This document shows, one piece after another, positions 34,613 to 54,258 of a stretch of 64,000 nt of DNA. Within the stretch, counting starts at the first letter, position 1. Every line of letters begins with the position of its first letter. The position numbers were made by a program, and so were the translations under genes. Under the pieces are notes generated by a model that saw only the letters and a list, made by a program, of their open reading frames with translations, ran no database searches and was not told the DNA's origin. The DNA comes from Massilia frigida (GTDB taxonomy: Bacteria; Pseudomonadota; Gammaproteobacteria; Burkholderiales; Burkholderiaceae_D), in NCBI RefSeq assembly GCF_011682175.1, contig NZ_WHJG01000015.1, forward strand, positions 62,001-126,000, written 5' to 3'.

Positions 34613-34934
34613 GGGGAATTCTAATGAGTGTGCAAAATGACGGAGTCGACATTATCGTCGCTTTTGCCCTCCCAGCATAGCTGTGGGCGGGAGTAATCAA
34701 GGCAGTCGCGCGAACACCCGGGCAAGCCCCTTGCGTCGACGAACACGTCTGTACGACGCCAAGCTCATTGCCGTCTCGGAGTACGGCATTCACGCCCTGC
34801 CGGCGCGCTCCCGCTTTGCCACCGGAACGATCGAGTTCGTGGCCCGACATAAGCGCACACATCCTTTTGGAAGGCCGCGTCAGGCAGTTGCCAAGGCCGG
34901 TGCTGAGAGCGCTGTGCTCCGCTCCAGACACCGT
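34613..34934. other. Intergenic gap before the eCIS cargo section
   Basis: This 322-bp gap lies between the OsmC-YcaO start and the 3' end of the deaminase-like cargo gene. I see a weak hairpin near 34669-34693 (CTCCC...GGGAG) and no convincing gene. It should contain the promoter of the OsmC-YcaO gene and the terminator of the cargo gene; neither has a clear consensus. Confidence 0.45.
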
Positions 34935-37439
34935 TCAGCGCAAAAACTTGCTGCGGTCTGCGTTGTCGGCTGCATCACGCAAGCGCTTCATTTCCTGCAC
35001 CCCCAGCCACTCGGCGCTGCCCTTGGACGTGTATGCCGCGATCGCCTGGTCGAGGGCTGCGACATACACGCCCACATCCTTTCGGAAGCGCGCGACCTTT
35101 TCTGACGGAAAATGTTCTGACGCCAGGCGCGCGGCGTTGTCAAGTAGCGTATCGCGCACACGGCCAAAATACGTGCTTCGCAGTTCCGCCGACTCGAACG
35201 TGATACCTGCAAAGGATGGTGTCGCAGGCTGCGAAAGGAAAGGCCCAAGGTCTGCCGCCTGAGCGCCGTGCGTTGCGAAGCCCGGCATCGGCAGCAGCGG
35301 CACAGACGCCTGTACCTGCATCGCCGTCTGTGCCGCCTTCACCGGCGACACTGTGCGCTCCCGGGCCTGCGCGCGCAGCGCCTGGTCGAGCCGCGCCTGG
35401 CGCGCCTTCGCGTTGGCAGCATCCCGCTCGGCCGCCGCATGGTCGTTCTCCGCGGCCGCCTGCCGCTCCAGCGCGGCGAGCAGGCGGCCGAGCTTGTCGC
35501 GCTCGACGACCAGCTCCTGCGGGGCTTGCCGGGAATTTGCTCCTCCTTTCGCTTCGATTTCCGTGATCAGCGCGCGCACCCGCCCCGCAAGCTCGGCGGT
35601 GGTCAGCGGGACCGGGGTCGTGGCGCGGCGCACGTCGCTTTCGAGGAGCATGATATCCTCGTCGTCCAAGCCAAATTCCACCAGCTTCGCGTGTGACGGC
35701 AATTGGTTGTTGTGTTCCCGGATGTAGCGGCTTAGTTCGGCCGAGCGCGCGGCGACGCGCGCCGCTTCCCAGCCCATTTGCATCGCTGCGGTCCAGCCCT
35801 GGATGGTCCACGCAAGCACCGTCCCGCCGCCGCCCGTAAACTCATCCGTAAAGTGCAGCCCCTGCGCCGCGATGTCGACCAGCGCAACGCCGACGGTGCC
35901 CACACCCATGACGATGTCGCCGTGCCCGATGTCCTTGACGCCCGTGATGACGTCGGGCACGGAGAAGGCGGCGCCGAGCACCGGGATCGCGGCATTGGCA
36001 AGGCGTCTGCCCGTCGCCCTCATCGCCATCGCCGAGAACGCCTCCGCTGCCGCCTTCCACGCCTGCTTGCCTTCGACGCGCACCAGTTGCGTCGCCACGC
36101 CCTCCCCCAAGCCGTCGAGCATCGCCTTCGCGGCACTGGCCTCCTCCCGCGCCGCGAGCGCCTTTGCCGCAGCTGCCTCCAGGCCAGGGGCGACGTTCGC
36201 AGTGGGCGTGACGCCCGCTGGCGCAGGGCCCTGGTTCGGCGCCAGAGGAAGCCGCACGCGCGTGTGCTCGCCGCGCGTCATGAGCGACGCCATGTGGTCC
36301 GGCGGCGGCGTGCGCGGTTCGAACGGTACTTCGGACTGCAGCAGCGCATCCTTGTAGGCGGTCTTGGCGGCGACCGGCAGGTCGGGATTGACCTTGCTCA
36401 TGCGCATGGGCGTGACCGTCCTCAGGCTGCCGGCGGCGGTGAAATCCTTCCATTCTTTCAGCAGCGGTGAGCAGGTGCCGGGGCATGGATCCTGGTCGAT
36501 CATCAGCACGGTGTAGTTGACCTGCGCGCCGGAGGCGATCATCGAGCGGATCTCCGCCTCGACCAGCTGTTCGGCATGGGCGGCGCCGCGCGCATTCATC
36601 CTCTCGATGGTGGCGATGCGCTTGCCCGCGCGGTCAAACACCGCCGCGACCGCGCCGACGCGCGTGCGAAAACCACTGGCGCTCATCGCCTCTTCGGCGG
36701 TCCGCTGAGCGTTCAAACGGGTGAACAGTTCCCGCGCAAGTTCTTCGTTGTAGGGCGAGACATAAGGCGTGTCCTGACGCGCGATCGAGGGCGTGCCACC
36801 CGCCCCCTGCTGAATGACGTGCGCCAATTCGTGCGCGAGCAGCCGTTTGCCATCGTCTGTCGCCGGCGCATATTCGCCCCCGCCGAACACGATATCACTG
36901 CCGAAGGTGTAGGCGCGCGCCTGTACGCCGCGCGCAGCGCGCGCGGCCTCGCTGCCGGCGTGTATCCGAACCTGGCCGAAATCGTGCCCGAAGCGTGGCT
37001 CGAAAAAGGAGCGCACCTCCTGCGGCAGCGGTGCGCCGCCTCTGGAAGCGGCGTCCACGGCACCGCCGGTATCGAGCCCGGCAGTTGACTGTGCGGACCG
37101 AGCTTGCCTTGTCTGGATCGTCTTTCCTTGCTCCTGGCCGGCGGCTGCCGGTGCCGCACCATCCATCACCTTGTGCGCGAGCTCGTCTGCCTCGCGCTCG
37201 GAGGCATCTCCCGGGGAACTGACCGTTGACTTTCGTTGCATCGGCCGCGCTGTGAAGGAAGAAACAGCGGACGTGCAGCGCGGGCAAGCACCGCCGCAGG
37301 CGCACGCTGGCGTAGGTCGAACGGCGCCAGCCAGTGCGTGCGATCGCCCTGTTCGAGCTCGCGGCTGATGCCGTAAACCGTACGCGCCGGCCTGATGTCG
37401 GCTGCCGGGCGGAATCTTGACGGACTGGACGGCTCTCAC
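34935..37439 (-). CDS. eCIS-core (DUF4157) cargo protein with deaminase-like domain
   Basis: This 834-residue protein has a modular toxin-like layout. Residues 46-55 carry CACGGACPRC. Residues 130-215 form the eCIS-core domain (SFFEPRFGHDFGQVRIHAGS, then LLAHELAHVIQQG with H203, E204, H207). Residues 235-340 contain a deaminase-type pair: HAE at 288-290 (ARGAAHAEQLVEAEIRSM) and PCPGTC with C319 and C323 (VLMIDQDPCPGTCSPLLKEW). A hydrophobic Gly/Ala segment near 480-560 and a charged coiled coil near 650-740 follow. The GTG start follows AAAGGAG. It is divergent from the SARP-like regulator. A zinc nucleotide/nucleic-acid deaminase effector is inferred, not shown. Confidence 0.8.
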   Translation of the reverse strand: MRAVQSVKIPPGSRHQAGAYGLRHQPRARTGRSHALAGAVRPTPACACGGACPRCTSAVSSFTARPMQRKSTVSSPGDASEREADELAHKVMDGAAPAAAGQEQGKTIQTRQARSAQSTAGLDTGGAVDAASRGGAPLPQEVRSFFEPRFGHDFGQVRIHAGSEAARAARGVQARAYTFGSDIVFGGGEYAPATDDGKRLLAHELAHVIQQGAGGTPSIARQDTPYVSPYNEELARELFTRLNAQRTAEEAMSASGFRTRVGAVAAVFDRAGKRIATIERMNARGAAHAEQLVEAEIRSMIASGAQVNYTVLMIDQDPCPGTCSPLLKEWKDFTAAGSLRTVTPMRMSKVNPDLPVAAKTAYKDALLQSEVPFEPRTPPPDHMASLMTRGEHTRVRLPLAPNQGPAPAGVTPTANVAPGLEAAAAKALAAREEASAAKAMLDGLGEGVATQLVRVEGKQAWKAAAEAFSAMAMRATGRRLANAAIPVLGAAFSVPDVITGVKDIGHGDIVMGVGTVGVALVDIAAQGLHFTDEFTGGGGTVLAWTIQGWTAAMQMGWEAARVAARSAELSRYIREHNNQLPSHAKLVEFGLDDEDIMLLESDVRRATTPVPLTTAELAGRVRALITEIEAKGGANSRQAPQELVVERDKLGRLLAALERQAAAENDHAAAERDAANAKARQARLDQALRAQARERTVSPVKAAQTAMQVQASVPLLPMPGFATHGAQAADLGPFLSQPATPSFAGITFESAELRSTYFGRVRDTLLDNAARLASEHFPSEKVARFRKDVGVYVAALDQAIAAYTSKGSAEWLGVQEMKRLRDAADNADRSKFLR

Positions 37440-37983: not shown

Positions 37984-38928
37984 ATGGTTGCTTTGACGGT
38001 CCGTCTGTTTGGCCGCTTCGGCATTTTTTGTGGAGATCAGGCGAAACCTACCTTGAACAATCGGGCAGCGCGCGAACTGCTCTGCTATCTGGTTCTGCAT
38101 CGCAACCATCCGCAGCGGCGCGAGACGCTCGCCGACTTGCTCTGGCAAGACTCCTCCCCTGAGCAGGCGCGAAAGTACCTGCGTCAGGCCTTATGGCGAA
38201 TTCAATCCGCATTGCGTCCCGTCGCCGATGGCGGTGGCATGCAAGCCCTTGAGGTCGACCCGGAATGGATCCAGTTGAACAGCTGCGACCAGTTGCAGGT
38301 GGACGTGGCCCAGTTCGAGGAGGCGATGCGCTGCTGTCACGGCATACCTGGTGCTCAACTCGACGATATCGCCCGGCGTCGCCTGGAGGATGCGGTGGGC
38401 TTATACCGCGGCGACCTGCTGGAAGGCTGGTACCAGGACTGGTGCCTGGCCGAACGCGAGCGCTTCCAGAACGAATTGCTCGACGCACTCGAAAAGCTGG
38501 TTTGCTGGTGCGAGTCGCGCCACGACAGCGAGCGTGGACTGGCTTATGCCAAACGCATGCTTGCGCTCGATCCCGCTCGCGAGCAGGTGTACCGCCACAT
38601 GATGCAACTGCACGTGCTGGCAGGCAATCGAACCCAGGCGCTGCGGGAGTTCCAGCGCTGCGAACGCGTGCTCATGCAGGAGCTGGGAGTGGAACCGTCG
38701 CAGCAGACCCGCGCACTGCACGAGTCGATCCGGGACGGCAGCGTTGCCAGCCCCTGGCGCGATTCGGGCGTGAGCGGGACGCCCGGCAGCGCATCTGGAT
38801 TTGCGCTCGAGCCGCTGCCGGCGCTGGACGAACTGCTCAAGCGTGCGCAGCACCTGTTCGCCGGGATCGAGACCCGCTTCCGGCAAGATATCGCGGCCGC
38901 CGCCGGCCGTCCTATCGAACCCGACTGA
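37984..38928 (+). CDS. SARP/BTAD-type transcriptional activator
   Basis: The 314-residue regulator has an OmpR-like winged helix at residues 1-95 (VRLFGRFGIFCGDQAKPTLN, then RQALWRIQSAL) and a bacterial transcriptional activation domain at about 100-245 (DDIARRRLEDAVGLYRGDLL, then YRHMMQLHVLAGNRTQALRE and LMQELGVEPSQQTRALHE). This is the SARP/AfsR layout; such proteins bind 11-bp-spaced direct repeats next to the -10 element. The ATG at 37984 follows AAGGAAGG and places the winged helix at the N-terminus; ATGs at 37936 and 37957 are possible. It is the only regulator inside the eCIS region and probably controls it. Confidence 0.88.
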   Translation: MVALTVRLFGRFGIFCGDQAKPTLNNRAARELLCYLVLHRNHPQRRETLADLLWQDSSPEQARKYLRQALWRIQSALRPVADGGGMQALEVDPEWIQLNSCDQLQVDVAQFEEAMRCCHGIPGAQLDDIARRRLEDAVGLYRGDLLEGWYQDWCLAERERFQNELLDALEKLVCWCESRHDSERGLAYAKRMLALDPAREQVYRHMMQLHVLAGNRTQALREFQRCERVLMQELGVEPSQQTRALHESIRDGSVASPWRDSGVSGTPGSASGFALEPLPALDELLKRAQHLFAGIETRFRQDIAAAAGRPIEPD

Positions 38929-38982
38929 AGGAGACGGCGACAGGTCGATCTCGCAGCGGCCGCGCTTGGCACACGCGCAGCC

Positions 38983-39412
38983 ATGCCGATCCAGCGCAAG
39001 GCGCGCATCAGCGCGCCGGGCGACCGCTTCGAGCGCGAAGCCGACGACGTCGCCGACCGGGTGACGCGCATGGCGCAGCCGAGCGCACTCGACAGCACCA
39101 GCCGCGCGCGGACCGTCGCCGGGCACGCGCAAGCGCTTGATCTCGTCCAGTGCGCCGCCGCTGAAAACAGCGACACAGCGCCCGACACCGGGCTGGCCAT
39201 GCGGGTGGCTTCGCAGGGAGGCTCGCCGCTTCCCGTCGGCCTGCGCGCCTACTTGGCAGCCGCTTCGGCCGCAACGTCGATGACGTGCGCATCCACACAG
39301 GCTCCCAGGCCGACGCGGCAGCGGCCAGCGTCCAGCTCACGGTGATGGGTTGAGTCCATGCACGCAGGCAACGCTCTTGGACACCCCGTCTCGACCATCA
39401 GTCCCGCCTCCT
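38983..39412 (+). pseudogene. Broken eCIS-core (DUF4157) cargo gene with nuclease-tail remnant
   Basis: From 38983 the frame encodes MPIQRKARISAPGDRFEREA and continues to PLPVGLRAY, closely matching the intact cargo protein downstream. At about 39253 the frame shifts; the eCIS-core continues in another frame as FGRNVDDVRIHTGSQADAAA and stops at 39349. HELxH is lost. At 39376-39412 the DNA again resembles the 3' end of the nuclease-type cargo gene (42902-42939; shared block CTCGAC, ATCAGTCC). This looks like the wreck of a duplicated core-plus-nuclease gene. Confidence 0.75.
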
Positions 39413-39420: not shown

Positions 39421-39530
39421 GCGATGCCGATGCAGGCCCGCCCTGCCCCAAGCCGCGCACGACAGCGCGGCAGACGCGGCCGAGACGTTGATGCGACGCA
39501 CCCCGGATAGATTGGCAACATGATCCGCGT
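39421..39530 (+). repeat. Promoter repeat, copy 1
   Basis: About 110 bp are nearly the same as 43086-43190, including GCAGGCCCGCCC, GCGCACGACA, the three heptamers and ACATGATCCGCGT. Copy 1 precedes the cysteine-rich cargo gene. The match ends shortly after the -10 region, so the repeat is essentially a mobile or duplicated promoter unit. Confidence 0.85.
39471..39513 (+). promoter_or_regulatory. Putative SARP-type promoter of the cysteine-rich cargo gene
   Basis: Three similar heptamers lie at an exact 11-bp period: CAGACGC (39471-39477), GAGACGT (39482-39488) and GCGACGC (39493-39499). Exactly 8 bases later comes the -10-like TAGATT (39508-39513). SARP activators are known to bind such repeats with the last one 8 bp before the -10. 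Transcription should begin near 39520, which favours the cargo start at 39580 over the ATG at 39520. Confidence 0.65.
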
Positions 39531-39579
39531 ATCCGCTTCAGTTTTTGACATCGCAAGACCGTTTGGAGCAGTGCCCGAT

Positions 39580-40680
39580 ATGCAAGCGACATCGTTCGAA
39601 CCGCGCCAACGCAGCGCCAGGACGGCCCGTCCAGTGCCGTCGCCGGCCACCGGCCGCACGCCCGGCGGGCCGGTCGCCCTGCGCGCCGGCGGCGCCTGCG
39701 CGTGCGGTGGCGGATGCCCGCGCTGCACTGCAGCCATTGCTCCGGGCGCAGCCATGCCGATCCAGCGCAAGCCGGACATCAGCGTTCCGGGCGATGCCGC
39801 AGAACGCGAAGCGGACCAGGTAGCCGACCACATCATGACCAGCGGCCCCGCCAGCGCGGCATCCGGGCCAGGGGCCATCGGCACCGGTCCTGTCGCGCTT
39901 GAACGCAAGTGCGCAGCCTGTGACGACGATTACGACAACACCACGCTGGCCAGGCAAGCGGCTTTTGACGGTCCGGAAAACGACATCGATACCGGCGCGG
40001 CTGTGCGGACGGCCGCCAGCGGCGGCGCACCGCTATCGTCGGCGTTGCGCGCCTATTTCGAACCGCGCTTCGGGCACGACTTCAGCGCTGTGCGGGTGCA
40101 CGCGGACCGCGAGGCGGCCGCCGCCGCGCGCTCGGTGCAGGCGCGGGCCTACACTTACCGCAGCCATGTCGTGTTTGCTGCCGGCGAATATGCGCCCGCC
40201 ACGGAGCAAGGCAAGCGACTGCTCGCGCATGAATTGACCCATGTGGTTCAGCAGGGCGCGGCGCGCAGCGCGACAGGCACGCGCATCGACCGCCAAGCAG
40301 CGCCGCCGGCAAACGTGTGCGGCATGCGCGAGCCCTTGTACGGCTGGGACAATATTCGGAACATCTCCCGGGAACGGCTGCGCGCCGCCGGGTTCGTGTT
40401 TTGCGGCCCTGACTATTGGCACGACCCGGCGCGATGGGAGAAATGGGTGCACCCGACGAGAGGCATACTGCACTTTCAGGTGGCATGGCGGGACGACCCT
40501 GCGCCAGCGCCTGCGCCCGAACCCGACCCGCCCGATGACCGGCAGCAACGTTGCGCGGATCCCTGCCTTGAACAATCGGATGACGAAGATTCATGTAAAG
40601 CGTGTTGCGAAGAGACCATTCCCGAAGACGATACGCGGTGCCGGGCCACGTGCGATGTCGCCTGTTCATTGATGCTTTGA
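39580..40680 (+). CDS. eCIS-core (DUF4157) cargo protein with cysteine-rich C-terminus
   Basis: The 366-residue product carries CACGGGCPRC at 40-49, a MPIQRKPDISVPGD linker, and the eCIS-core domain at about 150-235 (AYFEPRFGHDFSAVRVHADR, then LLAHELTHVVQQG with H217, E218, H221). A unique 60-residue block follows (VCGMREPLYGWDNIRNISRE). A Pro/Asp-rich linker then leads to a terminal segment with ten cysteines (CADPC, CKACC, CRATCDVAC). The ATG at 39580 was preferred over 39520 because the predicted transcript start is at about 39520. The C-terminal function is unknown; a disulfide- or metal-stabilised toxin or adhesin is possible. Confidence 0.75.
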   Translation: MQATSFEPRQRSARTARPVPSPATGRTPGGPVALRAGGACACGGGCPRCTAAIAPGAAMPIQRKPDISVPGDAAEREADQVADHIMTSGPASAASGPGAIGTGPVALERKCAACDDDYDNTTLARQAAFDGPENDIDTGAAVRTAASGGAPLSSALRAYFEPRFGHDFSAVRVHADREAAAAARSVQARAYTYRSHVVFAAGEYAPATEQGKRLLAHELTHVVQQGAARSATGTRIDRQAAPPANVCGMREPLYGWDNIRNISRERLRAAGFVFCGPDYWHDPARWEKWVHPTRGILHFQVAWRDDPAPAPAPEPDPPDDRQQRCADPCLEQSDDEDSCKACCEETIPEDDTRCRATCDVACSLML

Positions 40681-40723: not shown

Positions 40724-43030
40724 ATGCAACGTGCCCACGCGACAACGGCCTCCACGGTCACACGCCCCTCCGCCCACGAGCAGCGGCCGGGCTTACGCCC
40801 TGCGCTGTCCACGGCACCACCCGCAGCCATTGGACGTGTTTCAAACTGTGCCTGTGGCGGAGCTTGCCCGCGTTGCGCTTCCGCCGCATCGGCCAGCGCG
40901 GCCGCGTCAACGAGCGTGCCAAGCGTTCGCCCGGCGGGAAGCACGGCTACAGGCGAGGAGGAAGCCCCGCCCATCGTCCACGAGGTCTTGCGCGCGCCCG
41001 GCCAGGCGCTCGATCCCGCCGCGCGCACGGTCATGGAACGCCACTTCGCCTACGACTTCAGCCAGGTCCGGATTCATGCCGACGCGAGGGCGGCGCAATC
41101 CGCACGGGCCGTCGATGCCGCAGCGTACACCGTGGGACGTCATCTGGTATTTAATGCCGGGGCGTACGCACCGCACTCACGCCCAGGCCAGGAGCTGATT
41201 GCGCACGAACTCACCCATGTCATTGAGCAGGCGAACGGCCCCGTGTCGGGCCGGCCAGGCGCGGCCGGCCTGACCGTGAGCCAAGCGGGCGATGCGCATG
41301 AGCGCCAGGCCGACGGCGTCGCCTCCAGGCTCTTCAACGATCCAGCGTCAGGCCAGCCCGCGGCGCGGCGCAGTACCGGCCTGACGCCGCTCGGACCGGC
41401 TGTGAATCGCACGATTCAACGCCAGCACCGGTCGGGCGCATCGACACGACCCGTATCACGCGGCCCCGCTGTCGTCGAGGACGGGCAGCATCTCGCGGCC
41501 GGGCAGATGCCGCGCTCGGCGTTTCTGGCGGCCTTGCGTGCCGCCTTGCTCGACGCAAGCGACGCCGAATTGCGGCGCTTCGGCCGGACGGCGAGGAACT
41601 GCCCTTTTATCCTGCGCACCATCGAGCGCTATGCGACGCGCCCCCTGTCTTCCATGATGCGTCTGATCCAGGCGTTTGCGCGGCCGCCCGCGGGGGCCGA
41701 CGCGCACGGGCTCATCGCCGCGGTGAGCGAGCGCGCTCGCATTGTGGCTCGCCGGATCGGGCAACGACAAGGCCCCCTGGCGCAAGCCATGACCGAGAGC
41801 CGGGATGCAACGCTGCCTTCGCATGAGCCGTCGGTCATCCGCGCGCAGCTCGGGAGCGGGCGTACGCTGGACCGCTCCACGCGCGCGAACATGGAAGGCT
41901 CGTTCGGGACCAGCTTCGGGTCCGTCCGCGTACACGACGACTCGCCCGCTGCCCGCTTCAACAGCGTGCTCGGAGCGCGCGCCTTCACCGTTGGCCAGGA
42001 TATTGCGTTTGCCGCAGGCCAGTACCGTCCGGGCACCACAACGGGCGACCTGTTGATTGCGCATGAACTGGCCCACACCGTCCAGCAGGGCTCAGGCAGG
42101 CCCCAACAGTCAATGGGGGCCGCCGCTCAGGAAGAACTGGAACGGCAGGCCGACCGCGCCGCTCAATCCGCAGTCCTGGGGCATGACGCAGACGCACCGG
42201 CGCCCCGCCTTGACAAAAGCGCAATGCAAGTCCAGCGTGCGCCAGCCCTCGTGGCAGCCGGCCTGCTCATCGCGGAGGCAACGCCCGAGGCCATCATTCT
42301 CGCCGAAGTTGTCGCCGTGAGCACGACCGAGGTGGTTGTGGCGGACGGCGCGCTGGTTGTGGCGGCAGAACTGGCAGCCCCGGCAATCCTTGAGGTTGCG
42401 GCGCCCGTGGCAATTGAGACCCTGGCTCCGGTGGCAGTCGAAGCCCTGGCGCCAGCGGCAGTTGAGGCCAGCTCGTCCGTTCTCGCGGCCGCGACCGCAA
42501 CCGTTGGCATCGGAGTCGCCGCCACAACGCTACCGACCGATAGTCCGACCCGGGAGCGACGGCGCCGCAGCTGCCGTTCCGACCCGTGTCCGGAGCCTTT
42601 GCCGGTCCTGTGGCCGAGCGAATTGCCGCTCCCCCCCGATTTCGCACTGATCCGGACGCCATCGGACGTTCGCGAGGCCGAAGGATTGGGCGACCGCGGT
42701 CCCGCCCAGGCGCGCTTTTCAGCGGAGATCGCGTACGCGAGGACAAGGCACGTCCCGCCGCCAGATCCGTGCGATCCGATGGTCTTGCACGACGAATCGA
42801 GGTGGAATGCGCCCTATGATGCGCACCACATACATCCCCTGTACCTGGGTGGATTTGACGTGCGGGCCAATCTCTGCGCACTCGAAACGCATCTTCACCA
42901 GTTGGGGCACCCCCGGCTCGACAATCAGTCCAGCTTCCTCGACGTGTACATGGAATGCGGCATTTGTTCAGCCTCGTTAAAACATCATCCGGCCTACCAG
43001 ACGTACTACATTGCTGGAACGAGAAGGTGA
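40724..43030 (+). CDS. Double eCIS-core (DUF4157) cargo protein with HNH nuclease-like tail
   Basis: The 768-residue protein has CACGGACPRC at 42-51, a first eCIS-core domain (MERHFAYDFSQVRIHADARA; HELTH at 161-165), a helical linker (LAALRAALLDASDAELRRFG), and a second eCIS-core domain (MEGSFGTSFGSVRVHDDSPA; HELAH at 447-451). A hydrophobic Ala/Val-rich segment at about 507-605 comes next. The C-terminal domain (residues 650-768) holds AHHIHPLYLGGFDVRANLCA with H701, H702, H704, then THLHQLGHPRLDNQ, the pattern of HNH/LHH nucleases. A DNase-type effector is inferred. No adjacent immunity gene is seen. It follows the cysteine-rich cargo gene by 43 bases. Confidence 0.82.
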   Translation: MQRAHATTASTVTRPSAHEQRPGLRPALSTAPPAAIGRVSNCACGGACPRCASAASASAAASTSVPSVRPAGSTATGEEEAPPIVHEVLRAPGQALDPAARTVMERHFAYDFSQVRIHADARAAQSARAVDAAAYTVGRHLVFNAGAYAPHSRPGQELIAHELTHVIEQANGPVSGRPGAAGLTVSQAGDAHERQADGVASRLFNDPASGQPAARRSTGLTPLGPAVNRTIQRQHRSGASTRPVSRGPAVVEDGQHLAAGQMPRSAFLAALRAALLDASDAELRRFGRTARNCPFILRTIERYATRPLSSMMRLIQAFARPPAGADAHGLIAAVSERARIVARRIGQRQGPLAQAMTESRDATLPSHEPSVIRAQLGSGRTLDRSTRANMEGSFGTSFGSVRVHDDSPAARFNSVLGARAFTVGQDIAFAAGQYRPGTTTGDLLIAHELAHTVQQGSGRPQQSMGAAAQEELERQADRAAQSAVLGHDADAPAPRLDKSAMQVQRAPALVAAGLLIAEATPEAIILAEVVAVSTTEVVVADGALVVAAELAAPAILEVAAPVAIETLAPVAVEALAPAAVEASSSVLAAATATVGIGVAATTLPTDSPTRERRRRSCRSDPCPEPLPVLWPSELPLPPDFALIRTPSDVREAEGLGDRGPAQARFSAEIAYARTRHVPPPDPCDPMVLHDESRWNAPYDAHHIHPLYLGGFDVRANLCALETHLHQLGHPRLDNQSSFLDVYMECGICSASLKHHPAYQTYYIAGTRR

Positions 43031-43085: not shown

Positions 43086-43190
43086 GCGATTCCGACGCAG
43101 GCCCGCCCCAACCCGCGCACGACACCACGGCAGACGGCGGCGAGACGTTGATGCGACGCGCCCCAGTTAAATTGACAACATGATCCGCGT
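43086..43190 (+). repeat. Promoter repeat, copy 2
   Basis: This copy of the 39421-39530 block lies in the 231-bp gap between the nuclease-type cargo gene and the sheath gene. The heptamers are almost unchanged (CAGACGG, GAGACGT, GCGACGC), while the sequence just before the -10 differs (CCAGT versus CCGGA). Confidence 0.85.
43131..43173 (+). promoter_or_regulatory. Putative SARP-type promoter of the eCIS structural operon
   Basis: Heptamers CAGACGG (43131-43137), GAGACGT (43142-43148) and GCGACGC (43153-43159) repeat every 11 bp. The -10-like TAAATT (43168-43173) follows after exactly 8 bases. The predicted start lies near 43180, giving a leader of about 80 bases before the sheath ATG at 43262. 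The layout equals the copy at 39471. Confidence 0.65.
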
Positions 43191-43261
43191 GTCCGGAACC
43201 GGCGTGAATGAACGTCCTGGGGGCGCCGGAAAAAGGTGAATCCTCTCGAACAGGAGACTGT

Positions 43262-45181
43262 ATGGTCCAGGTGAGCTATCCAGGTGTCTACATCGTCGAA
43301 AAGAGCAGCGGCGTACGCACCATCACTGGCGTGGCGACGTCGGTTGCGGCATTCGTCGGGTTCACGCGCAAAGGCCCGGTCGACAAAGCGGTGGCGATCA
43401 CCAGCTTCGCCGACTTCGAACGCAGCCACGGCGGCCTCGATCGTGACAGTCCGGTGTCGTATGCGGTGCGCCAGTTTTTCCTCAATGGCGGCACCCAGGC
43501 CCTGATCGTGCGGGTAGCCAGCGGTCACGGTACGGCGGGATGGGTACTCCTCGATGGCACGACGCCTGTGCCTTTGCCAGTGCTCGATGTCTCCGCGGCC
43601 AGCCCCGGAGCCTGGGGCAATGCGCTGCGCGTTTCCGTCGAACTGACCGAGGTGCGCAACCCGGCCAGCGATTTCAATCTCGTCATTTCACAAGTGCCCG
43701 CACTGGGTGGCGATCCGGTGGTGATCGAAACCCACCGCAATCTCAGCCTCGACACGAAGTCAGCACAGTACGTCGAGTCGGTCGTCAACCACGCATCGGC
43801 AGCGGTGCGTGTGACTCGCCACTCGCCCCTGACGTTCACGCAAGCCGGCTTTGCGGTCAGCGGCCCCCTCGCTGGTGCGCCGCTGAACGTACCGGCCAAT
43901 ACGATCATCAGCGGCATCGTCAATGGCACGACGCCGTTCGTGCTGAACGTGCTCGCGCCGCCCCTTCCCGCCACGGCCTGGCCCTCGATTGCGGCCTTCG
44001 TCACCGCTGTCACGAACGCGATCGGCGCCGGCGGCTACGGCGCGGCCCTGGCGGCCAGCGAATCGGACGTCAACGGGGCCGCAGGCGCTGGCCACCTGAA
44101 GCTCACGTCAGCACTGCCGGTGGATGAATCATCAAGCGTCGTCATCAGCGGCGGGCCATTCGGCAGCCTCGCCGCCAACATCAAGATGGGCCTTGCCAAT
44201 GGCGGTATCGAACGCAGCGGTGCTGCACAGCATCGCCCAGTAGCGCTCGACAAGGCCGTGCCCTCGACCAAAGGAGCGGACGGCGCGCCCGGCGGCGAAG
44301 CTCTCCTGATCGGCAACGAACTTGCCAAGACCGGCATCCATGCGCTGCTTGACGTCGACATGTTCAATCTGCTGGTGATTCCCGAGACGTTCGACATGAC
44401 GGCGCCCCCGGCAGGCAGCGCGTTGATCGCCGCAGCGACCGACCTGTGCGAAAAACGGCGCGCTTTCTATATCGTCGATGCGCCGTCCAACAGGAAGCTC
44501 AGCGACATCGTCACCTGGGCCGGCGTCTCGCACTCGCGCAACGCGGCAAGCTATTTCCCACCAGTGCGCATCATCGATCCGCTTGACGGCATGCGCCCAA
44601 GGGCGATGGCGCCATCGGGCACCCTGGCCGGGGTGTATGCGCGCACCGACGCCACGCGCGGGGTCTGGAAGGCGCCGGCCGGCACCGACGCCGTGCTCAA
44701 CGGCGTGCTCGAACTGGCGCTCCCGCTCAGCGATCTCGAGAACGCGCAAATCAATCCCAAGGGGATCAACGCCTTGCGCAGCTTCCCCGCGTACGGCCGG
44801 GTTGCCTGGGGCGCGCGCACCATGAAGGGCGACGACAGCCAGGCCGACGAATACAAGTATGTCCCGATCCGCCGCCTCGCGCTGTTTCTCGAGGAAAGCC
44901 TGTACCGCGGCACGCAGTGGGTCGTGTTCGAGCCGAACGATGAGCCCTTGTGGGCCCAGATCAGGCTGAACCTCGGCGTTTTCATGAACGGCTTGTTCCG
45001 CCAGGGTGCGTTCCAGGGCAAGACGCCGCAGGAGGCTTACTTCGTCAAGTGCGACAAGGAGACCACCACCCAGGCTGACCGCAACCTTGGCATCGTCAAC
45101 GTCCTGGTCGGCTTTGCGCCGCTCAAACCTGCCGAATTCGTCGTCCTCACCATTCAGCAGATCGCCGGCGATCTGCAATAA
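43262..45181 (+). CDS. eCIS contractile sheath protein
   Basis: The sheath surrounds the inner tube and contracts to drive it into the target. The 639-residue product begins with the diagnostic sheath start (VSYPGVYIVEKSSGVRTITG, then VATSVAAFVGFTRKGPVDKA) and ends with the conserved C-terminal domain (VPIRRLALFLEESLYRGTQW, then VFEPNDEPLWAQIRLNLGVF and GFAPLKPAEFVVLTIQQIAG). The central region is a variable surface domain. AGGAG lies before the ATG at 43262; an earlier ATG at 43208 lacks one. It is the first gene of the structural operon. Confidence 0.96.
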   Translation: MVQVSYPGVYIVEKSSGVRTITGVATSVAAFVGFTRKGPVDKAVAITSFADFERSHGGLDRDSPVSYAVRQFFLNGGTQALIVRVASGHGTAGWVLLDGTTPVPLPVLDVSAASPGAWGNALRVSVELTEVRNPASDFNLVISQVPALGGDPVVIETHRNLSLDTKSAQYVESVVNHASAAVRVTRHSPLTFTQAGFAVSGPLAGAPLNVPANTIISGIVNGTTPFVLNVLAPPLPATAWPSIAAFVTAVTNAIGAGGYGAALAASESDVNGAAGAGHLKLTSALPVDESSSVVISGGPFGSLAANIKMGLANGGIERSGAAQHRPVALDKAVPSTKGADGAPGGEALLIGNELAKTGIHALLDVDMFNLLVIPETFDMTAPPAGSALIAAATDLCEKRRAFYIVDAPSNRKLSDIVTWAGVSHSRNAASYFPPVRIIDPLDGMRPRAMAPSGTLAGVYARTDATRGVWKAPAGTDAVLNGVLELALPLSDLENAQINPKGINALRSFPAYGRVAWGARTMKGDDSQADEYKYVPIRRLALFLEESLYRGTQWVVFEPNDEPLWAQIRLNLGVFMNGLFRQGAFQGKTPQEAYFVKCDKETTTQADRNLGIVNVLVGFAPLKPAEFVVLTIQQIAGDLQ

Positions 45182-45192: not shown

Positions 45193-45711
45193 ATGCCCAG
45201 CTTTGCCGTCAACGCGCACCGCTTCGATCCGTACAAGAACTTCAAATTCCGCATCAAATGGGACGGCCGCTACGTGGCGGGAATCAGCAAGGTCGGCTCG
45301 CTCAAGCGCACCACCGAAGTGGTCGAACACCGTGAGGGCGGCGATCCTTCCACCGGACGCAAGTCGCCGGGCCGCACCAAGTACGAGGCGATTACCCTCG
45401 AGCGCGGCGTCACGCACGACCTCGAGTTCGAAGCCTGGGCCAACAAGGTGTGGCACGTGAACGCGGGGCTGGGCGCCGAGGTCAGCCTGAAGGACTTCCG
45501 CAAGGACCTGATCCTCGAAATCTACAACGAGACGGGCCAGGTCGTCCTCGCCTACAAGATCTTTCGCTGCTGGGTTTCGGAGTACCAGGCCATGCCCGAC
45601 CTCGACGCCAACGCCAACGCCATCGCCATCCAGCACATCAAGCTCGAGAACGAGGGCTGGGAACGCGACCCCGAGGTCACCGAACCGACCGAACCGGTGC
45701 TGGCCGGGTGA
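45193..45711 (+). CDS. eCIS inner tube protein
   Basis: Tube subunits stack into the hollow needle that carries cargo. The 172-residue product matches the T4 gp19-like tail-tube family of phage-tail-like particles (FDPYKNFKFRIKWDGRYVAG, then KRTTEVVEHREGGDP and FRCWVSEYQAMPDLDANANA). It follows the sheath by 11 bases. Only one tube gene is seen here, whereas some eCIS loci have several. Confidence 0.93.
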   Translation: MPSFAVNAHRFDPYKNFKFRIKWDGRYVAGISKVGSLKRTTEVVEHREGGDPSTGRKSPGRTKYEAITLERGVTHDLEFEAWANKVWHVNAGLGAEVSLKDFRKDLILEIYNETGQVVLAYKIFRCWVSEYQAMPDLDANANAIAIQHIKLENEGWERDPEVTEPTEPVLAG

Positions 45712-46460
45712 CGGCCGTGGAGCGCGTCCCGCTCGACAACCCGATCCGGCGTTTCGGCCAGGCCGTGGACCTCGACCTCGACTTCGACCAGTCCGACCGC
45801 CCCAGCCTCGTGACGGCGCTGCTCGCGCAATGCAGCCTGCATGGCGACGCCGGCTACTGGTGGTCGCAGCCAGTGGGCGCACGCAGCGCGGCCCTGCTGC
45901 GCCTGCTGATCGAGACGGAAGGCACACGCCAGCTCGACCTGTCCGCGCGCTGCAGCCATCCACCCTGTGCCGCGGCCTTCGAATTCGAACTGTCGCTGCA
46001 GGCGCTTGCCGCTTGCGGCGGCGATGGCGGGCCGCTCCATATCGTGTTTGACGATGCGCGTTGCGTCTCGCTGCGCCGCCCTACCGGCGCCGACTTGCGT
46101 GACTGGCGCGGCAAACCGGCCGCCACGCGCGACGAGGCACTCGGCATGATGCTGGCCACCTTGCTGCTCGACGGCGAGGTGCGCTTGCAGGACGAGGCCA
46201 GGCTGTCGGCGGCGATCGCCGAGCTCGACCCGCTGATCGACTTTACCGTCGACTGCGCTTGCCCGGTCTGCGCCACGCCGAACCAGGTGGCGCTCGACCT
46301 TGAAGCGCTGGCGCTGTCCCGCCTCGCCGCGCGCCAGCGTTTGTTGCTGCGCGAGGTGCATGAGCTGGCCTCGCACTACGGCTGGACCGAGCAGGAAGCC
46401 TTGGCTGTACCGGCGCCAAGGCGCGCACAATACCTCGCCCTTTGCGAGGCGGCACGATGA
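45708..46460 (+). CDS. Probable baseplate accessory protein (gp26/gp51-like), Cys-bearing
   Basis: The 250-residue product starts at a GTG overlapping the tube stop (GTGA). The middle has Cys-rich spots (CSHPPC near residue 80 and CACPVC near residue 185). The last 60 residues (LLREVHELASHYGWTEQEAL followed by PAPRRAQYLALCE) match the ending common to small T4 gp26-type baseplate proteins (YGWSE and RR.YL patterns). It may help initiate the baseplate or the tube. The assignment rests on this C-terminal pattern and position. The cysteine pairs suggest a zinc site. Confidence 0.6.
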   Translation: MTAVERVPLDNPIRRFGQAVDLDLDFDQSDRPSLVTALLAQCSLHGDAGYWWSQPVGARSAALLRLLIETEGTRQLDLSARCSHPPCAAAFEFELSLQALAACGGDGGPLHIVFDDARCVSLRRPTGADLRDWRGKPAATRDEALGMMLATLLLDGEVRLQDEARLSAAIAELDPLIDFTVDCACPVCATPNQVALDLEALALSRLAARQRLLLREVHELASHYGWTEQEALAVPAPRRAQYLALCEAAR

Positions 46461-47311
46461 GCGGCTACTTCGGCGCCTTGATGCGCGCGAGCGCGATCAC
46501 GTTTGGAGGGCCAGCTCCCGCGCACGCGGCGCCGGTCCCCACCGTGGAAGCGCTAGCCGTCGACGGCGCCATCGCGCCGGCGGTCGTGGCCACACCCGCG
46601 CCCGCTGCCGAACCGGCAGGCTACGGCGCGGGCGCCGCGCCCGTTCCGGCAAGGGATCGGGCCGAGCCGGTGCGCCAGCCGCACGCCGCCGCGGCGACGG
46701 ACGCGCGCGCGGGCCAGGCAAGCGCAGTGCCGGACGTTGCGCGCCAGTCCAGTGCCGCTGCCGACAGCGTCGCGCCGGTCGCTGTGGCGCCCCATGCAGC
46801 GCCCGTGCTTGCGACGCCGACCCTGCTGCCAGACCTGGCGCCGGATCCGCGCGTACCGCAGCCGGGGCCGGATCGGGCTGCCCCGGCCGTCGCCACGGAG
46901 CCGCAAGGCCAGGATCTCATGCGCAAGGTGTTGCAGTGGGTGGCGGCCGGCCCGCAGCAGGCGCCAACGCAGGGCGAGCCACTGCCTCACGTTCATCACG
47001 CTCAGGCATCGGAAACCCCGGCGCCCGCGAGGGCGAGCGTCGCACAGACGCCGCAGCCGGACAGTCCCGCGCCGGTGCACCTGGCAATCGCGCCCGCCCG
47101 GCCAGACGCGCCGTTGCCAGATGCGGCGCAATCGAACGCAGTGGCGCCAGATGCAGCCGGCGAACAGGTGCTGGTATCGATCGGCGCCATCCACCTGCGG
47201 GTGTCGCCCCCGGCCGCCCAGGTCATCGAACGCGCGCCGCCGCCACCGGCCGCACCGGCCGCCCCCGTTGCGCGCAGCGCCCTGTCGCGGCGCGCGCTGC
47301 GCGGACTCTGA
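46457..47311 (+). CDS. Ala/Pro-rich eCIS protein of unknown function
   Basis: The 284-residue product is low-complexity (Ala, Pro, Val, Gln) and predicted disordered except for a short C-terminal beta segment (VLVSIGAIHLRVSPPAAQVI) and a helix near residue 155 (LMRKVLQWVAA). Similar IGxIxxR motifs occur in Ala/Pro-rich proteins of other eCIS loci, from my general knowledge. It overlaps the previous gene (ATGA) and precedes the Pvc16-like gene by 2 bases. A tape-measure or tube-tip adapter role is possible but unproven. It is too short for a standard tape measure. Confidence 0.5.
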   Translation: MSGYFGALMRASAITFGGPAPAHAAPVPTVEALAVDGAIAPAVVATPAPAAEPAGYGAGAAPVPARDRAEPVRQPHAAAATDARAGQASAVPDVARQSSAAADSVAPVAVAPHAAPVLATPTLLPDLAPDPRVPQPGPDRAAPAVATEPQGQDLMRKVLQWVAAGPQQAPTQGEPLPHVHHAQASETPAPARASVAQTPQPDSPAPVHLAIAPARPDAPLPDAAQSNAVAPDAAGEQVLVSIGAIHLRVSPPAAQVIERAPPPPAAPAAPVARSALSRRALRGL

Positions 47312-47313
47312 TC

Positions 47314-48480
47314 ATGGCGCGCGCAGACTCGGGAATGGCCATCGGCGCGGTGACGCGGCTGCTTCAGGATCACTTGCTCCGGGCCGCCTTCGAGGTCTCG
47401 GTCGGCAAACCCGAAGACGCCCCTGGAAGCGGCAACAACCCCAAACTGAACCTGTTCCTCTACGAGACCGCGCTCGACCCCCACCTGCGCAATCAGTCCT
47501 TGCGTGACGGCGAGGCGCCGCCGCTGTGGCTCGTGCTCAAGTACCTGCTGACCGCCTTCGACGTCGACAAGCGCAGCGACACGGCCAGCGCCCACGAGCT
47601 GCTCGGGCGCGCCATGTCGGCGTTGCAGCAACTGAGCTTCCTGCGCCTGGACCCCCTGGTCGCGCCCGCGGTGCGGCGCGCGCTCGAAGACAACCCCGAA
47701 CCGCTCAAGCTCACCTTCGACGACGCCAATGTCGAGCTACTGTCGAAGATCATGCAAGGCACGGATGAACGCTATCGCCTCTCGGTGGCCTTCCAGGTGC
47801 GGCCGGTAATGATCGTGCCGGACAGCCTGCCGCGCGGATCGCAGCTGGTCGGGGTCGACTACCACACGACGCCGGAAACCATCATTGGACGCGACGGCGT
47901 GCAAGTGAGCGTGATCCCGTCGATGGGGGCGCGCCTCGACCGTATCGAACCGGACCGCTTCGAGGCCGGCGCCGCGCTGACCCTGTACGGCGACGACCTG
48001 TCCGCCAGCAGCATGGAAGTCGTGCTCGGCGACGTGATCCTGGACGTCATCGAGCGTCACCTCGACCGCCTCGTGGTTCGCGCCGAAGGCAGCCCTGGAA
48101 CCCCGGTTGCCGGCGGCACCACGCTGTCACCCGGCGACATGCCGATCGTGGTGCGGCGCCGCTTGTCGCCCACCCGTACGCGGTCGAGCAATCTGCTGGC
48201 CGCGCGCCTGCTGCCCACCTTGAACAGCGCGGCGCTGATTGGCGCGGACCTGCAGTTAACCGGGCTGCTGCTGGGCACGGACGGCGACGATATCATGCTG
48301 CTGTTTTGCCGCGCGTCCGACGGCGTCACGGTCCATCTTGTCGACACCTTCGTCACCACCGCCAACCAGAACAGCCTCACCGTGCCCGGCGTCGCGGCGG
48401 CAGTCGCGCCCGGGACCTACTGGCTGATCCTGCGCGTGAACAACCAGCAGGCCAAGGCCAGCCCGAGCGTGACCATATGA
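47314..48480 (+). CDS. Pvc16/DUF4255-like tail cap (terminator) protein
   Basis: The first 190 residues of this 388-residue product match the DUF4255/Pvc16 N-terminal domain (AIGAVTRLLQDHLLRAAFEV, then NLFLYETALDPHLRNQSLRD and LVLKYLLTAFD). In eCIS this protein caps the end of the tail and fixes its length. The C-terminal half contains an IPT/TIG-like beta domain (FEAGAALTLYGDDLSASSME) and another beta domain. It overlaps the AAA+ ATPase gene by 4 bases. Confidence 0.88.
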   Translation: MARADSGMAIGAVTRLLQDHLLRAAFEVSVGKPEDAPGSGNNPKLNLFLYETALDPHLRNQSLRDGEAPPLWLVLKYLLTAFDVDKRSDTASAHELLGRAMSALQQLSFLRLDPLVAPAVRRALEDNPEPLKLTFDDANVELLSKIMQGTDERYRLSVAFQVRPVMIVPDSLPRGSQLVGVDYHTTPETIIGRDGVQVSVIPSMGARLDRIEPDRFEAGAALTLYGDDLSASSMEVVLGDVILDVIERHLDRLVVRAEGSPGTPVAGGTTLSPGDMPIVVRRRLSPTRTRSSNLLAARLLPTLNSAALIGADLQLTGLLLGTDGDDIMLLFCRASDGVTVHLVDTFVTTANQNSLTVPGVAAAVAPGTYWLILRVNNQQAKASPSVTI

Positions 48481-50609
48481 AGACCGCCCTGCGTCCCGCC
48501 CCCCGATTGCCCACCCCGCTCACTTTCACGCCCGGGGTGCGCGCTCACGATGCCCTGGCGCAATACTGGCTGGGCCAGGCCACCTTGCGCCTGCGGCGCG
48601 AAGTGTGCTGGCTGTGGCGCGAGCGCGGCCAGCAAGGCGCACCCGGCACGGGCGCGCTGCCGCCCTCGGTCGATGCCGCGCTGGCGGCACTGGACCTGGC
48701 CCGCTACCAGGGCGACAAGCAAGCCTTCTTCGCCGACGACGTCACGGCGCGCTACCTGAGCGAACAGATTGCATCGGGCGTCGCGCCGGACAGCGCCGAC
48801 GCGCCGCGCGGATCGTTCGGCTGGGTGGCGCAGCAACTGGACCTGGAACCGGTGGAGTGCTTCGTGCTGGCGGTCGCGCTGCTGCCCATGGTCGACAGCG
48901 CCGCCGGCCCGGTGATCGCAAGCTGCCAGAACGACCCCACCCGCGTCGCGCCCACGTTCGCCCTGGCCCAGCGTCTGTGGGACACACCCGACGAACTGTT
49001 GCGTTGCATGGTGCCGGCGCACGCACTGCTCACCCACGGCCTGCTGACCCTGGCGCCCGACAGCGGCGCGCATCTCTGGCATACCCCGCTGGCGGTGCCT
49101 ACCCTGGTCACCCGCGAATTGTTGCTGGGGACGGGGGAGCTGCCGGCCTGCCTCGAGGCCGTCGATGCGGCTGCCCTGCCCCATGCCATGGACCGCGCGC
49201 TCATCCGGCGCGTGGCAGCGGCGCTGGCCTCGCCAGCCGTGCAGGGCATGCGCATGGTGCCCGTCATCGGTGGCGCCGACGCCGGGCTGGCTGGCGTGGC
49301 GGCGGCCTGCGCCGCCGAGGCTGGGGTGCGTACGGTGCGCATCAGCGCCGCGCTGCCACGCTCCCAGCTTGAGCAGGCGCTCAGCGCCGCCTGGCTTGGC
49401 GGCTGCGCGGTCTACCTCGACGTCAGCGCCGTGCTCGACCAGCATGCCCACGACACGACCATCGCGCTGCCCCTCCCCGGACTGCCGCTGACCGTCTTTG
49501 TGGGCATGCAAGACCGCGCGCCATTGCGCAGACTGGGCGGTTCGCTGGCGCCGATCGCCGTGCCTTCGCTCAGCCACGCCGAACGGCTGGCCTGCTGGCG
49601 CCGCGCGGTGCCCGGCCACGCCGATGGCGCCGTGTTGACCGAGCTGGCGCGCCGCTTTCGCTACGAAGGCACGGCCATCGCGCGCGTCGGCGCCGAACTC
49701 GCCGCGCTTGGGCGCGCGCCCACGCACGCCGAGCTGCTCGCGGCCGCGCGCGCCGACCTCGACCTGGGCAGCCTGGCGCAGGCGGTGGCGCCGCGCTTTG
49801 GCCTGTCGGAACTGATGCTGCCCCCGATCCAGGCCGAGCAGGTCGCCGAGATCGTCGCGGCCATGGACAACCTGACCCGCGTGCACTACGACTGGGGCAC
49901 GGCGCGGGCCTGGAACGAAGGCGGCTTGTCGGCCCTGTTCGCCGGGCCGCCGGGGACCGGCAAGACCATGGCGGCCGAAGCGATCGCCGCCGAGCTTGGG
50001 CTGCCCATGTACCGGATCGACCTGTCGCAGGTGGTCAACAAGTACATCGGCGAGACTGAAAAGAACCTGCGCCGCCTGTTCGATGCCGCCGACGCGTCCG
50101 ACCTGATCCTGTTCTTTGACGAGGCCGACGCGCTGTTCGGCAAGCGCAGCGAGGTGAAGGATGCCCACGACCGCTACGCCAACCTGGAAATCAGCTACCT
50201 GCTCGAGCGCATGGAACGTTTCAAGGGCCTGGCGATCCTTGCCACCAATCGCCGCAAGGACCTCGATGAAGCCTTCCTGCGGCGTCTGCGCTTCGCGGTG
50301 GAATTCCCGCTGCCGGGTGTTGCCGAGCGCGCGCGCATCTGGCGCAGCGTGATTCCCGCCGGGGTCGACGCGAGCGAACTCGACTTTGAGTTCCTGGCCC
50401 AGCGTTTCACCCTGGCCGGTGGACACATCCGCGGCATCGTATTCCAGGCCTGCCTGCAAAGCGCCGCCGCCGGCGCCGCGCCGAGGCTGACCATGGCAGC
50501 GGTGTTGCGCGCGCTGCAGCGTGAATACGACAAACTCGAACGAGTCAACAGCCTCGACCAATTCGGCCAATATGCCGCCTTGGTCGCCCCGCAAAGGAAC
50601 CAGCGATGA
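48477..50609 (+). CDS. eCIS AAA+ ATPase
   Basis: This 710-residue AAA+ protein is a hallmark of eCIS loci and is thought to assist assembly or cargo handling; phage tails and T6SS lack this type. The C-terminal half holds Walker A GPPGTGKT at residues 490-497, Walker B LILFFDEADALFG from residue 543, and the arginine-finger region (LDEAFLRRLRFAVEFPLP). The long N-terminal 450 residues form helical domains seen in the family (LDLEPVECFVLAVALLPMVD). It overlaps both neighbours by 4 bases. Confidence 0.93.
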   Translation: MKTALRPAPRLPTPLTFTPGVRAHDALAQYWLGQATLRLRREVCWLWRERGQQGAPGTGALPPSVDAALAALDLARYQGDKQAFFADDVTARYLSEQIASGVAPDSADAPRGSFGWVAQQLDLEPVECFVLAVALLPMVDSAAGPVIASCQNDPTRVAPTFALAQRLWDTPDELLRCMVPAHALLTHGLLTLAPDSGAHLWHTPLAVPTLVTRELLLGTGELPACLEAVDAAALPHAMDRALIRRVAAALASPAVQGMRMVPVIGGADAGLAGVAAACAAEAGVRTVRISAALPRSQLEQALSAAWLGGCAVYLDVSAVLDQHAHDTTIALPLPGLPLTVFVGMQDRAPLRRLGGSLAPIAVPSLSHAERLACWRRAVPGHADGAVLTELARRFRYEGTAIARVGAELAALGRAPTHAELLAAARADLDLGSLAQAVAPRFGLSELMLPPIQAEQVAEIVAAMDNLTRVHYDWGTARAWNEGGLSALFAGPPGTGKTMAAEAIAAELGLPMYRIDLSQVVNKYIGETEKNLRRLFDAADASDLILFFDEADALFGKRSEVKDAHDRYANLEISYLLERMERFKGLAILATNRRKDLDEAFLRRLRFAVEFPLPGVAERARIWRSVIPAGVDASELDFEFLAQRFTLAGGHIRGIVFQACLQSAAAGAAPRLTMAAVLRALQREYDKLERVNSLDQFGQYAALVAPQRNQR

Positions 50610-50869
50610 CACCCAAGCAACCACGCCACTTGCACATCGACCGGCTCGACCTGGACTTGCGCGGGATCGATCCCCTGACCGCGCAGGCAGCCGTGCGCGC
50701 ACTGGGGCCGGCGCTGGCCCGCACCCTGGGCGCCGGTCCGGGCCCGCGCGCGCCGGGAATGAACGTCGACGCCGGCCAACTGGCAACTGCGGCAGCGCCG
50801 GCGCCGCACGATCTGGCGGCGGCCATGGCGCAACGCATCGCCACCAGCCTGAAGGTGAACAAGCCATGA
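50606..50869 (+). CDS. Small eCIS protein of unknown function
   Basis: The 87-residue product (HLHIDRLDLDLRGIDPLTAQ, then HDLAAAMAQRIATSLKV) overlaps the ATPase upstream and the next gene by 4 bases, so it is surely a gene. Small proteins of this shape, with a beta-start and an Ala-rich helix, occur at this position in other eCIS loci as far as I recall. It has no signal peptide or enzyme motif. A baseplate or spike chaperone is a reasonable guess. Confidence 0.6.
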   Translation: MTPKQPRHLHIDRLDLDLRGIDPLTAQAAVRALGPALARTLGAGPGPRAPGMNVDAGQLATAAAPAPHDLAAAMAQRIATSLKVNKP

Positions 50870-51534
50870 GCCTCCTGCGTGGCGCACTGATCGAATACGG
50901 AACCAGCCTGATCGGGCCGATCCCGAATGTCGTCATTTTCCAGTTCAATCCCGAGTCGCTGTCGCGCACCTTGCAGATCCCGCCGCGTCCGACCGGTGCC
51001 AGCCAGCGCGAGACCACGCAGGCCGGAGAAAAGACCTTCGAGAAGATCAGCTTCAAGGCGCACTTCAGCGCGGCCAACATGCTCGATGAAGGCAAGGTGC
51101 TGGCCACCCTGTTCGGCATCGGACCGCAGCTCGCCGCCCTCGAGAAAATGGTGTTGCCCAGCGCCAAGATCGCCGGCCTGGTCGGCGCGGCGATCGACGC
51201 CATCGGTGGCGCCCTTGGGGGCGGCGACAGCGCGCCCCCGGCGCAACCGATCCCGCGCGAAAAATACCCGCGCATCCTGTTCATTTGGGGCCTGACCCGC
51301 GTGCTGCCGGTGACCATCGATTCGATGAGCATCTCCGAACTCGAGTACGACACCATCCTGAACCCGACCCGCGCCGAAGTCGATATCACACTGAGCGTCA
51401 TCGCCGTCGACGACTGCTCCGACGACATGCTGGCCCAAGGCGCCCTCGAGTACTCGACCATCGCCAAGGAAGCGCAGGCGATCGCCAACCTCGCCAACAC
51501 GGCCGAGCAAATCGTCGACCTGATCCCCTTATAG
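50866..51534 (+). CDS. Contractile injection system tube-initiation/baseplate protein (Pvc7-like)
   Basis: The 222-residue product has the conserved N-terminus VIFQFNPESLSRTLQIPPRP, the CIS tube-protein family signature, and a C-terminal domain (YPRILFIWGLTRVLPVTIDS, then LEYDTILNPTRAEVDITLSV). Such proteins bridge the tube and the hub and are often called LysM-fused; here the LysM part is a separate downstream gene. It contains a Gly/Ala-rich insert near residues 105-130. Confidence 0.85.
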   Translation: MSLLRGALIEYGTSLIGPIPNVVIFQFNPESLSRTLQIPPRPTGASQRETTQAGEKTFEKISFKAHFSAANMLDEGKVLATLFGIGPQLAALEKMVLPSAKIAGLVGAAIDAIGGALGGGDSAPPAQPIPREKYPRILFIWGLTRVLPVTIDSMSISELEYDTILNPTRAEVDITLSVIAVDDCSDDMLAQGALEYSTIAKEAQAIANLANTAEQIVDLIPL

Positions 51535-51545
51535 GAGCCGCCACG

Positions 51546-51818: not shown

Positions 51819-51821
51819 AGC

Positions 51822-54246: not shown

Positions 54247-54258
54247 GCCGCCACTTTC

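Follow-up and report, generated by a model that had tools for sequence, protein, structure and literature searches.

Candidate SARP operators before the cargo-like genes and the injector operon of a Massilia frigida eCIS locus

AfsR is a SARP regulator of Streptomyces, and ActII-ORF4 is another. In these Streptomyces systems a wHTH is followed by a BTA domain, and the operator (the afs box of AfsR) consists of 11-bp direct repeats lying over the -35 position, the published rule for SARPs being that repeats are spaced at 11 or 22 bp and that the 3' repeat lies 8 bp from the -10 element (PMC10936776). Genes encoding BTAD proteins next to eCIS are likewise already in print: Geller et al. (2021) placed BTAD among the 'shell' domains, those of eCIS from 4 to 10 phyla, and the legend to their model figure names BTAD as a regulator and has eCIS regulators answering to yet unknown signals (PMC8213781), the association being repeated in PMC12961389. 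The passages of Geller et al. that concern these BTAD genes (PMC8213781) give no operator, promoter or regulon, whereas a candidate operator is described here. No operator for eCIS-adjacent BTAD genes was found in the literature searched, most subscription journals lying outside it. The design of SARP operators is already known; an operator for an eCIS, its placement ahead of two groups of genes, and a link between a regulator residue and an operator base appear to be new within that literature.

The DNA analysed (the window) is a stretch of 64,000 nucleotides from Massilia frigida. On its forward strand, 5' of the operator sites described below, it encodes a protein of 314 aa (37984 to 38928) that has the predicted make-up of a small SARP, with an N-terminal wHTH region and then a BTAD. 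The start at 37984 was set by alignment to the homologue in an Anaerolineales locus, L079, with which the protein shares 42% identity over the alignment; the list of open reading frames has 37936. In a Pfam scan, BTAD (PF03704; residues 122-266 of the 330-aa ORF, 3.2e-23) was the sole hit, with no separate hit to a DNA-binding domain and none to a receiver domain. Using phmmer, residues 28/29-249 aligned to EmbR (2fez, 2.8e-8) and AfsR (8hvr, 1.2e-5), an alignment that takes in the recognition helix (segment KYLRQALW, which contains Q68), and the protein would accordingly combine an OmpR-type DNA-binding domain with the BTAD that follows it, as SARPs do. The DNA before the regulator's own gene has neither a pair nor a triple of GACG at 11 bp, so that the regulator is not obviously self-controlled.

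Two candidate operator/promoter sites lie further 3' on the same strand, both of them intergenic. The main element, at 43131 to 43173 and 5' of the eCIS sheath gene, reads CAGACGG-cggc-GAGACGT-tgat-GCGACGC-gccccagt-TAAATT; the second copy, at 39471 to 39513 and 5' of the eCIS_core genes, reads CAGACGC-ggcc-GAGACGT-tgat-GCGACGC-accccgga-TAGATT. Each has three direct-repeat heptamers nnGACGn at an 11-bp period, and the 3' repeat is exactly 8 bp from a -10-like hexamer (TAAATT at 43131, TAGATT at 39471), as would be expected of a SARP operator. Operators of this design have three or four heptamers of consensus (A/G)AGACGC, unlike the afs box with its two repeats. The first-pass annotation had claimed that the sheath gene is preceded by the same operator geometry as the other copy, and this proved correct. 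Its description of the copies held in part: GAGACGT and GCGACGC are common to both, but the first heptamer, said to be kept as CAGACGG, is CAGACGC in the 39471 copy; the 4-bp spacers and the 8-bp distance are kept, with a different hexamer; and the bases between, said to differ, do so in the first spacer, whereas the second spacer is identical, as is 86% of the surrounding 94-nt repeat.

The three-heptamer pattern, with up to three mismatches, had two occurrences in the window, whereas 100 dinucleotide shuffles produced none. When the 350 bp upstream were scanned for repeats, the sites exceeded the shuffles when TANNNT at 8 bp was required (0/200 each) and, without that requirement, were not significant on their own (P 0.13 and 0.09). 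Throughout the organism's own genome (7,792,306 bases), the full pattern with TANNNT at 8 bp and at most one mismatch was found at these two sites only, against one match for the reversed-pattern control; GACG triples at 11 bp numbered six, and two with the reversed control.

The first gene 3' of the 39471 site encodes an eCIS_core (DUF4157) protein (39520 to 40680; Pfam 3.7e-31); its ATG at 39520 falls 6 nt past the -10 hexamer, and an in-frame ATG at 39580 is preceded by GGAG. The same ATG-ATC-CGC-GT stands 6 nt past the hexamer in both copies (39520 and 43180), giving a possible leaderless start in the first and a 19-codon ORF in the second. A second eCIS_core gene follows (40724 to 43030; Pfam 3.5e-58, two stretches), in which a Peptidase_M91-like part scored 22.1 bits, under the Pfam cutoff of 25; the label 'cargo-like' is used because of the eCIS_core (DUF4157) domains and this sub-threshold match. 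The 43131 site is followed by the sheath gene (43262 to 45181; Pfam Phage_sheath_1C 1.4e-8 and Phage_sheath_1 1.7e-7, scored on the listed ORF from 43208), for which 43262 is the likely start: AGGAG precedes it, and the nearest relatives match by tblastn from the first residue of the protein read from there. Next come the gp19-like inner tube gene (45193 to 45711; Pfam 6.3e-44; at most 91% identical to Pseudomonas eCIS tubes) and, from 46300 to 61861, the rest of the structural region, encoding a Pvc16_N protein, an AAA ATPase, VgrG-like, gp25, baseplate J, TIGR02243-like and Tail_P2_I proteins (Pfam, NCBIfam), the VgrG and TIGR02243 matches being under their NCBIfam cutoffs. With sheath, tube, AAA ATPase, gp25 and baseplate J genes along with eCIS_core, the locus is an eCIS. 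On the opposite strand, 32411 to 37439 holds a third eCIS_core gene and an OsmC-YcaO protein gene, with no GACG triple at 11 bp. Elsewhere in the window, beside flagellar genes, a 553-aa ORF (17974 to 19635) has sigma-70 regions 2 and 4 in its C-terminal part only.

A search with the tube protein provided 80 eCIS loci (the best 80 of 568), and a relative of the regulator was present in two of them (tblastn 1e-4): L079, with a regulator match of 45% (tblastn), and L092, from Anaerolineae, with one of 31%. Between its regulator and sheath genes, L079 carries the array AAGACGC-cagc-AAGACGC-cagc-AAGACGT; apart from those of the window, no other GACG triple at 11 bp was present in the 1.59 Mb made up of L004-L099 and the window. 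In L092, the DNA that separates a divergent BTAD gene from the sheath gene showed, on inspection by eye, a perfect 11-bp repeat, CGACACGCTGG, twice at about 7934-7967 and then TATACT. The L079 regulator was then compared with 396 genomes of its class, 182 of which had a match at 1e-30, and 50 regions were fetched around matches at 1e-50 or better, L079's own being left out. At least one eCIS protein was encoded near the regulator in 29 of the 50, with an AAA ATPase alone in three of these.

Triples of GACG at 11 bp were found in 9/52 Chloroflexota SARP loci (0.68 Mb) versus 0/78 non-SARP eCIS loci (1.42 Mb). Both sets yielded few loci at the remaining periods between 5 and 24, with a maximum at 12 (GACG 6/52 versus 5/78; AGACG 4 versus 0), and among all 256 4-mers at 11 bp, AGAC (10 loci) and GACG (9) led together with their complements, GCGC coming next with 4. 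A PWM trained on nine Chloroflexota arrays, with the window held out, reached 15 or more at 11 bp in 11/52 SARP loci (nine being training rows) and in 0/78 non-SARP loci, and gave the held-out window sites scores of 23.5 and 22.1. At the same threshold, the period-12 signal was weaker against controls (6/52 versus 4/78), and SARP and non-SARP loci numbered 0 and 0 at 10 bp, 0 and 1 at 13 bp, and 1 and 4 at 9 bp; L082, one of the 78 non-SARP loci scored whole, reached 12.0 at 11 bp. With the threshold at 12, an array at 11 or 12 bp was present near the regulator in 19/52 SARP loci, of which 16 have it 8 to 477 bp 3' of the regulator stop; that of L168 overlaps the end of the regulator gene, and those of L176 and L177 lie 2.3 kb 3'. 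Absence of the heptamers from relatives had been named beforehand as grounds for dropping the claim; of the loci with a related regulator, about half at most had them, and loci without one did not. The heptamers step by 12 bp instead of 11 in the Chloroflexota loci L135, L145, L155, L162 and L169, with TANNNT at 8, 19 or 20 bp, and this step in some relatives of the window regulator is unlike Streptomyces SARP operators.

The 19 arrays had been picked regardless of any -10 element. The hexamer TANNNT lay 3' of them at +8 in seven, at +19 in four and at +20 in five, with 0.24 expected per offset, and at most once at any other offset from 0 to 44. Fifteen of the 19 have it at 8, 19 or 20 bp, those without being L079, L160, L171 and L174; in L079, TATACA was seen by eye at 7 bp. 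As offsets 19 and 20 equal 8 plus another slot of 11 or 12, the spacing in the Chloroflexota arrays fits the SARP rule as published (PMC10936776).

A stricter rule, framed after first inspection of the arrays, required an nnXACGn array with TANNNT at 8, 19 or 20 bp, between -60 and +800 bp of the regulator stop. It was met by 24/50 Chloroflexota loci and by the window (two further loci were too short), compared with about 0.01 per locus in shuffles, and no such array was present in the other 26, several of which lie near contig ends. Expressed as 860-bp stretches, 24/50 Chloroflexota regions 3' of a SARP gene qualified versus 4/3024 in non-SARP eCIS loci and, inside SARP loci, 3/403 far away on the same strand and 3/663 on the other strand, these control stretches not being matched for coding content. 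An eCIS gene lay in the fetched stretch of 18 of the 24 array loci, and none was seen in L132, L148, L149, L155, L165 and L172; the operator is therefore tied to the regulator more surely than to the eCIS.

The third heptamer base (X) varied with residue 68 of the regulator. Where this residue is Q, X was mostly G in 17/17 arrays, the window included, and where it is K or R, X was A or T in 7/8, the exception being L164 (K, mostly G); the association gave a Fisher value of 1.7e-5, which counts loci and not events, since supported branches of the tree hold just one independent pair. Arrays were present by the rule in 17/30 Q loci, 8/15 K/R loci and 0/6 loci where the residue is H, N or T. Within the first 110 residues, no scored column had higher mutual information with X than column 68 (20 G loci versus 7 A/T loci, L164 and the window left out). 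In a held-out test with the prediction fixed beforehand, six new loci yielded five arrays, all five as predicted, and none in L201. A phylogenetic test of the link was not significant, with one independent pair on supported branches and five on the best tree (34 rows, without L092, L179, L187 and the helix), on which at least five changes of residue 68 and at least six of base 3 were counted. Window residue Q68 aligns with AfsR T88 (phmmer alignment, residue numbering of the paper), one of the two base-contacting residues (PMC10936776), and, on the assumption that the afsS -10 spans -12 to -7, the base touched by T88 corresponds to heptamer base 3. Near 10333 of L179, GTGATGT-4-GTGACGT-4-GAGACAT-8-TATACT directly follows a SARP gene whose product has T68, as in AfsR.

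Repeats of 7 bp with 4-bp spacers, and thus an 11-bp period, are also characteristic of the Pho boxes recognised by PhoB/OmpR-type regulators, and on geometry alone the sites might serve a response regulator of that type encoded elsewhere. The heptamer is, however, unlike the Pho box, the linked regulator lacks the receiver domain, and the arrays go with the SARP gene just as base 3 goes with the SARP helix residue, which makes such an operator improbable. A chance or codon-periodic repeat is hardly credible: control loci do also score for period-12 and period-9 arrays, but 11 is not a multiple of 3, both sites fall between genes, no control locus reached 15 at 11 bp, and 7.79 Mb of genome held only the two full sites.

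The two copies belong to one 94-nt direct repeat (39442 to 39535 and 43102 to 43195) that extends beyond the -10 hexamer into ATGATCCGCGT, common to both. Identity between the copies was 20/21 in the heptamers and 56/67 in the other columns except the -10 hexamer (Fisher p=0.28). The argument of the first-pass annotation, that spacing conserved despite base changes speaks for function, was therefore rejected as stated: duplication without selection can explain the likeness of the copies, and comparison within the window alone is no proof of selection on the heptamers. The site could then be a non-functional by-product, copied along with eCIS_core sequences, and a piece of eCIS_core is likewise duplicated, 38975-39058 being 81% identical to 39746-39829 within the intact eCIS_core gene. 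A by-product is nevertheless a little less probable even than the PhoB-type operator, because Chloroflexota loci share these heptamers, this period and these -10 distances although their flanks are unlike. The stretch from 38975 to 39345, between the regulator and the 39471 site, is an eCIS_core-like fragment of decayed appearance.

The reading preferred here, to which a probability of about 0.88 is given on sequence grounds, is that 43131 to 43173 is the activator-binding site and -10 element of a SARP-dependent promoter, that the 39471 site is the same, and that one activator serves both gene groups. Expression of the cargo-like genes and of the injector operon is very probably switched on by this single activator, since the switch stands before both groups and one of the same kind stands beside related regulators in distant bacteria. 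The claim, which had been made at the outset on other grounds, is supported by the SARP-type regulator in the locus, by the two full genome sites placed one before each group, and by the recurrence of the heptamer/11-bp design, with a -10-like hexamer at the SARP distance, beside related Chloroflexota regulators, many of which belong to eCIS loci, and its absence from eCIS loci that lack the regulator. Mechanistically, the linked small SARP would bind the three heptamers on one helix face, at the -35 position, and by analogy with AfsR might contact RNA polymerase and sigma region 4, so that the promoter would fire from the -10 element 8 bp 3' of the heptamers, with a start site predicted downstream of it. 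The 39471 site would put the eCIS_core and cargo-like genes under the same SARP, and activation through the same arrangement at both sites would have payload and injector made together. The target would thus be an injection system, unlike the antibiotic genes of Streptomyces SARPs, in a host outside Actinomycetota. One eCIS thereby gains a defined candidate operator and a single candidate activator, as does, by extension, a set of Chloroflexota systems; eCIS control becomes directly testable by reporter and co-regulated genes findable from DNA alone, and the SARP promoter rule of 11-bp repeats and 8 bp to the -10 would be carried outside Streptomyces.

A wider account, for and against which the odds seem evenly balanced, is that a small-SARP lineage outside Actinomycetota is dedicated to eCIS, residue 68 (the AfsR T88 position) setting heptamer base 3, as G for Q and as A/T for K/R; that regulator and operator moved as a unit between phyla and were fitted here onto a Pseudomonas-like eCIS whose same-family relatives are without it; and that copying of the promoter gave cargo and injector a joint response. 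Among the named genomes, the nearest tube and sheath relatives were Pseudomonas and Tahibacter loci without the regulator (L020-L024), in which tblastn (1e-4) detected no SARP and the DNA before the sheath gene contained no significant array followed by TANNNT at 8 bp. The tube was present in 9/392 genomes of the window's family, itself included, two of the other eight being of the same genus, and neither a regulator hit nor an array was seen in the stretch fetched for any of these eight eCIS loci (about 8 kb upstream of the sheath gene, or about 0.5 kb only for L213). A regulator match at 1e-15 was found in 8/294 family genomes, itself included, the seven others lying in frames of more than 1000 residues, and one at 1e-30 in 5/398 genomes of the phylum, again including itself. 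In the tree, the window regulator stood among Chloroflexota rows (94/93), the nearest row being 50% identical over 260 columns; since rows entered the tree for their similarity to a Chloroflexota protein, no donor or direction is claimed. Given this grouping, and the lack of the regulator in the nearest eCIS relatives and the eight family loci, the window's eCIS seems to have acquired regulator and operator as a module.

No relatives were found of the window regulator in genome_contigs or of the L079 regulator in viral_contigs. An exact 18-mer had one match in viral contigs, taken as chance because tblastn gave no eCIS or SARP there, and the AAGACGC triple had five, around which, in the DNA fetched, tblastn showed neither SARP nor eCIS. 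Against plasmids, the promoter DNA gave two short matches and the L079 regulator nine records at 29-30% identity, and the best matches of a flagellar protein were in Undibacterium and Variovorax, which points to a host in Burkholderiales. The phylum sample contained one further small SARP, encoded immediately before an eCIS sheath gene in L187, where the repeat CTCGTGA, seen twice by eye, is not claimed as an operator because no -10 lies at 8 bp; this SARP is 36% identical to that of the window and 31% to the L079 regulator.
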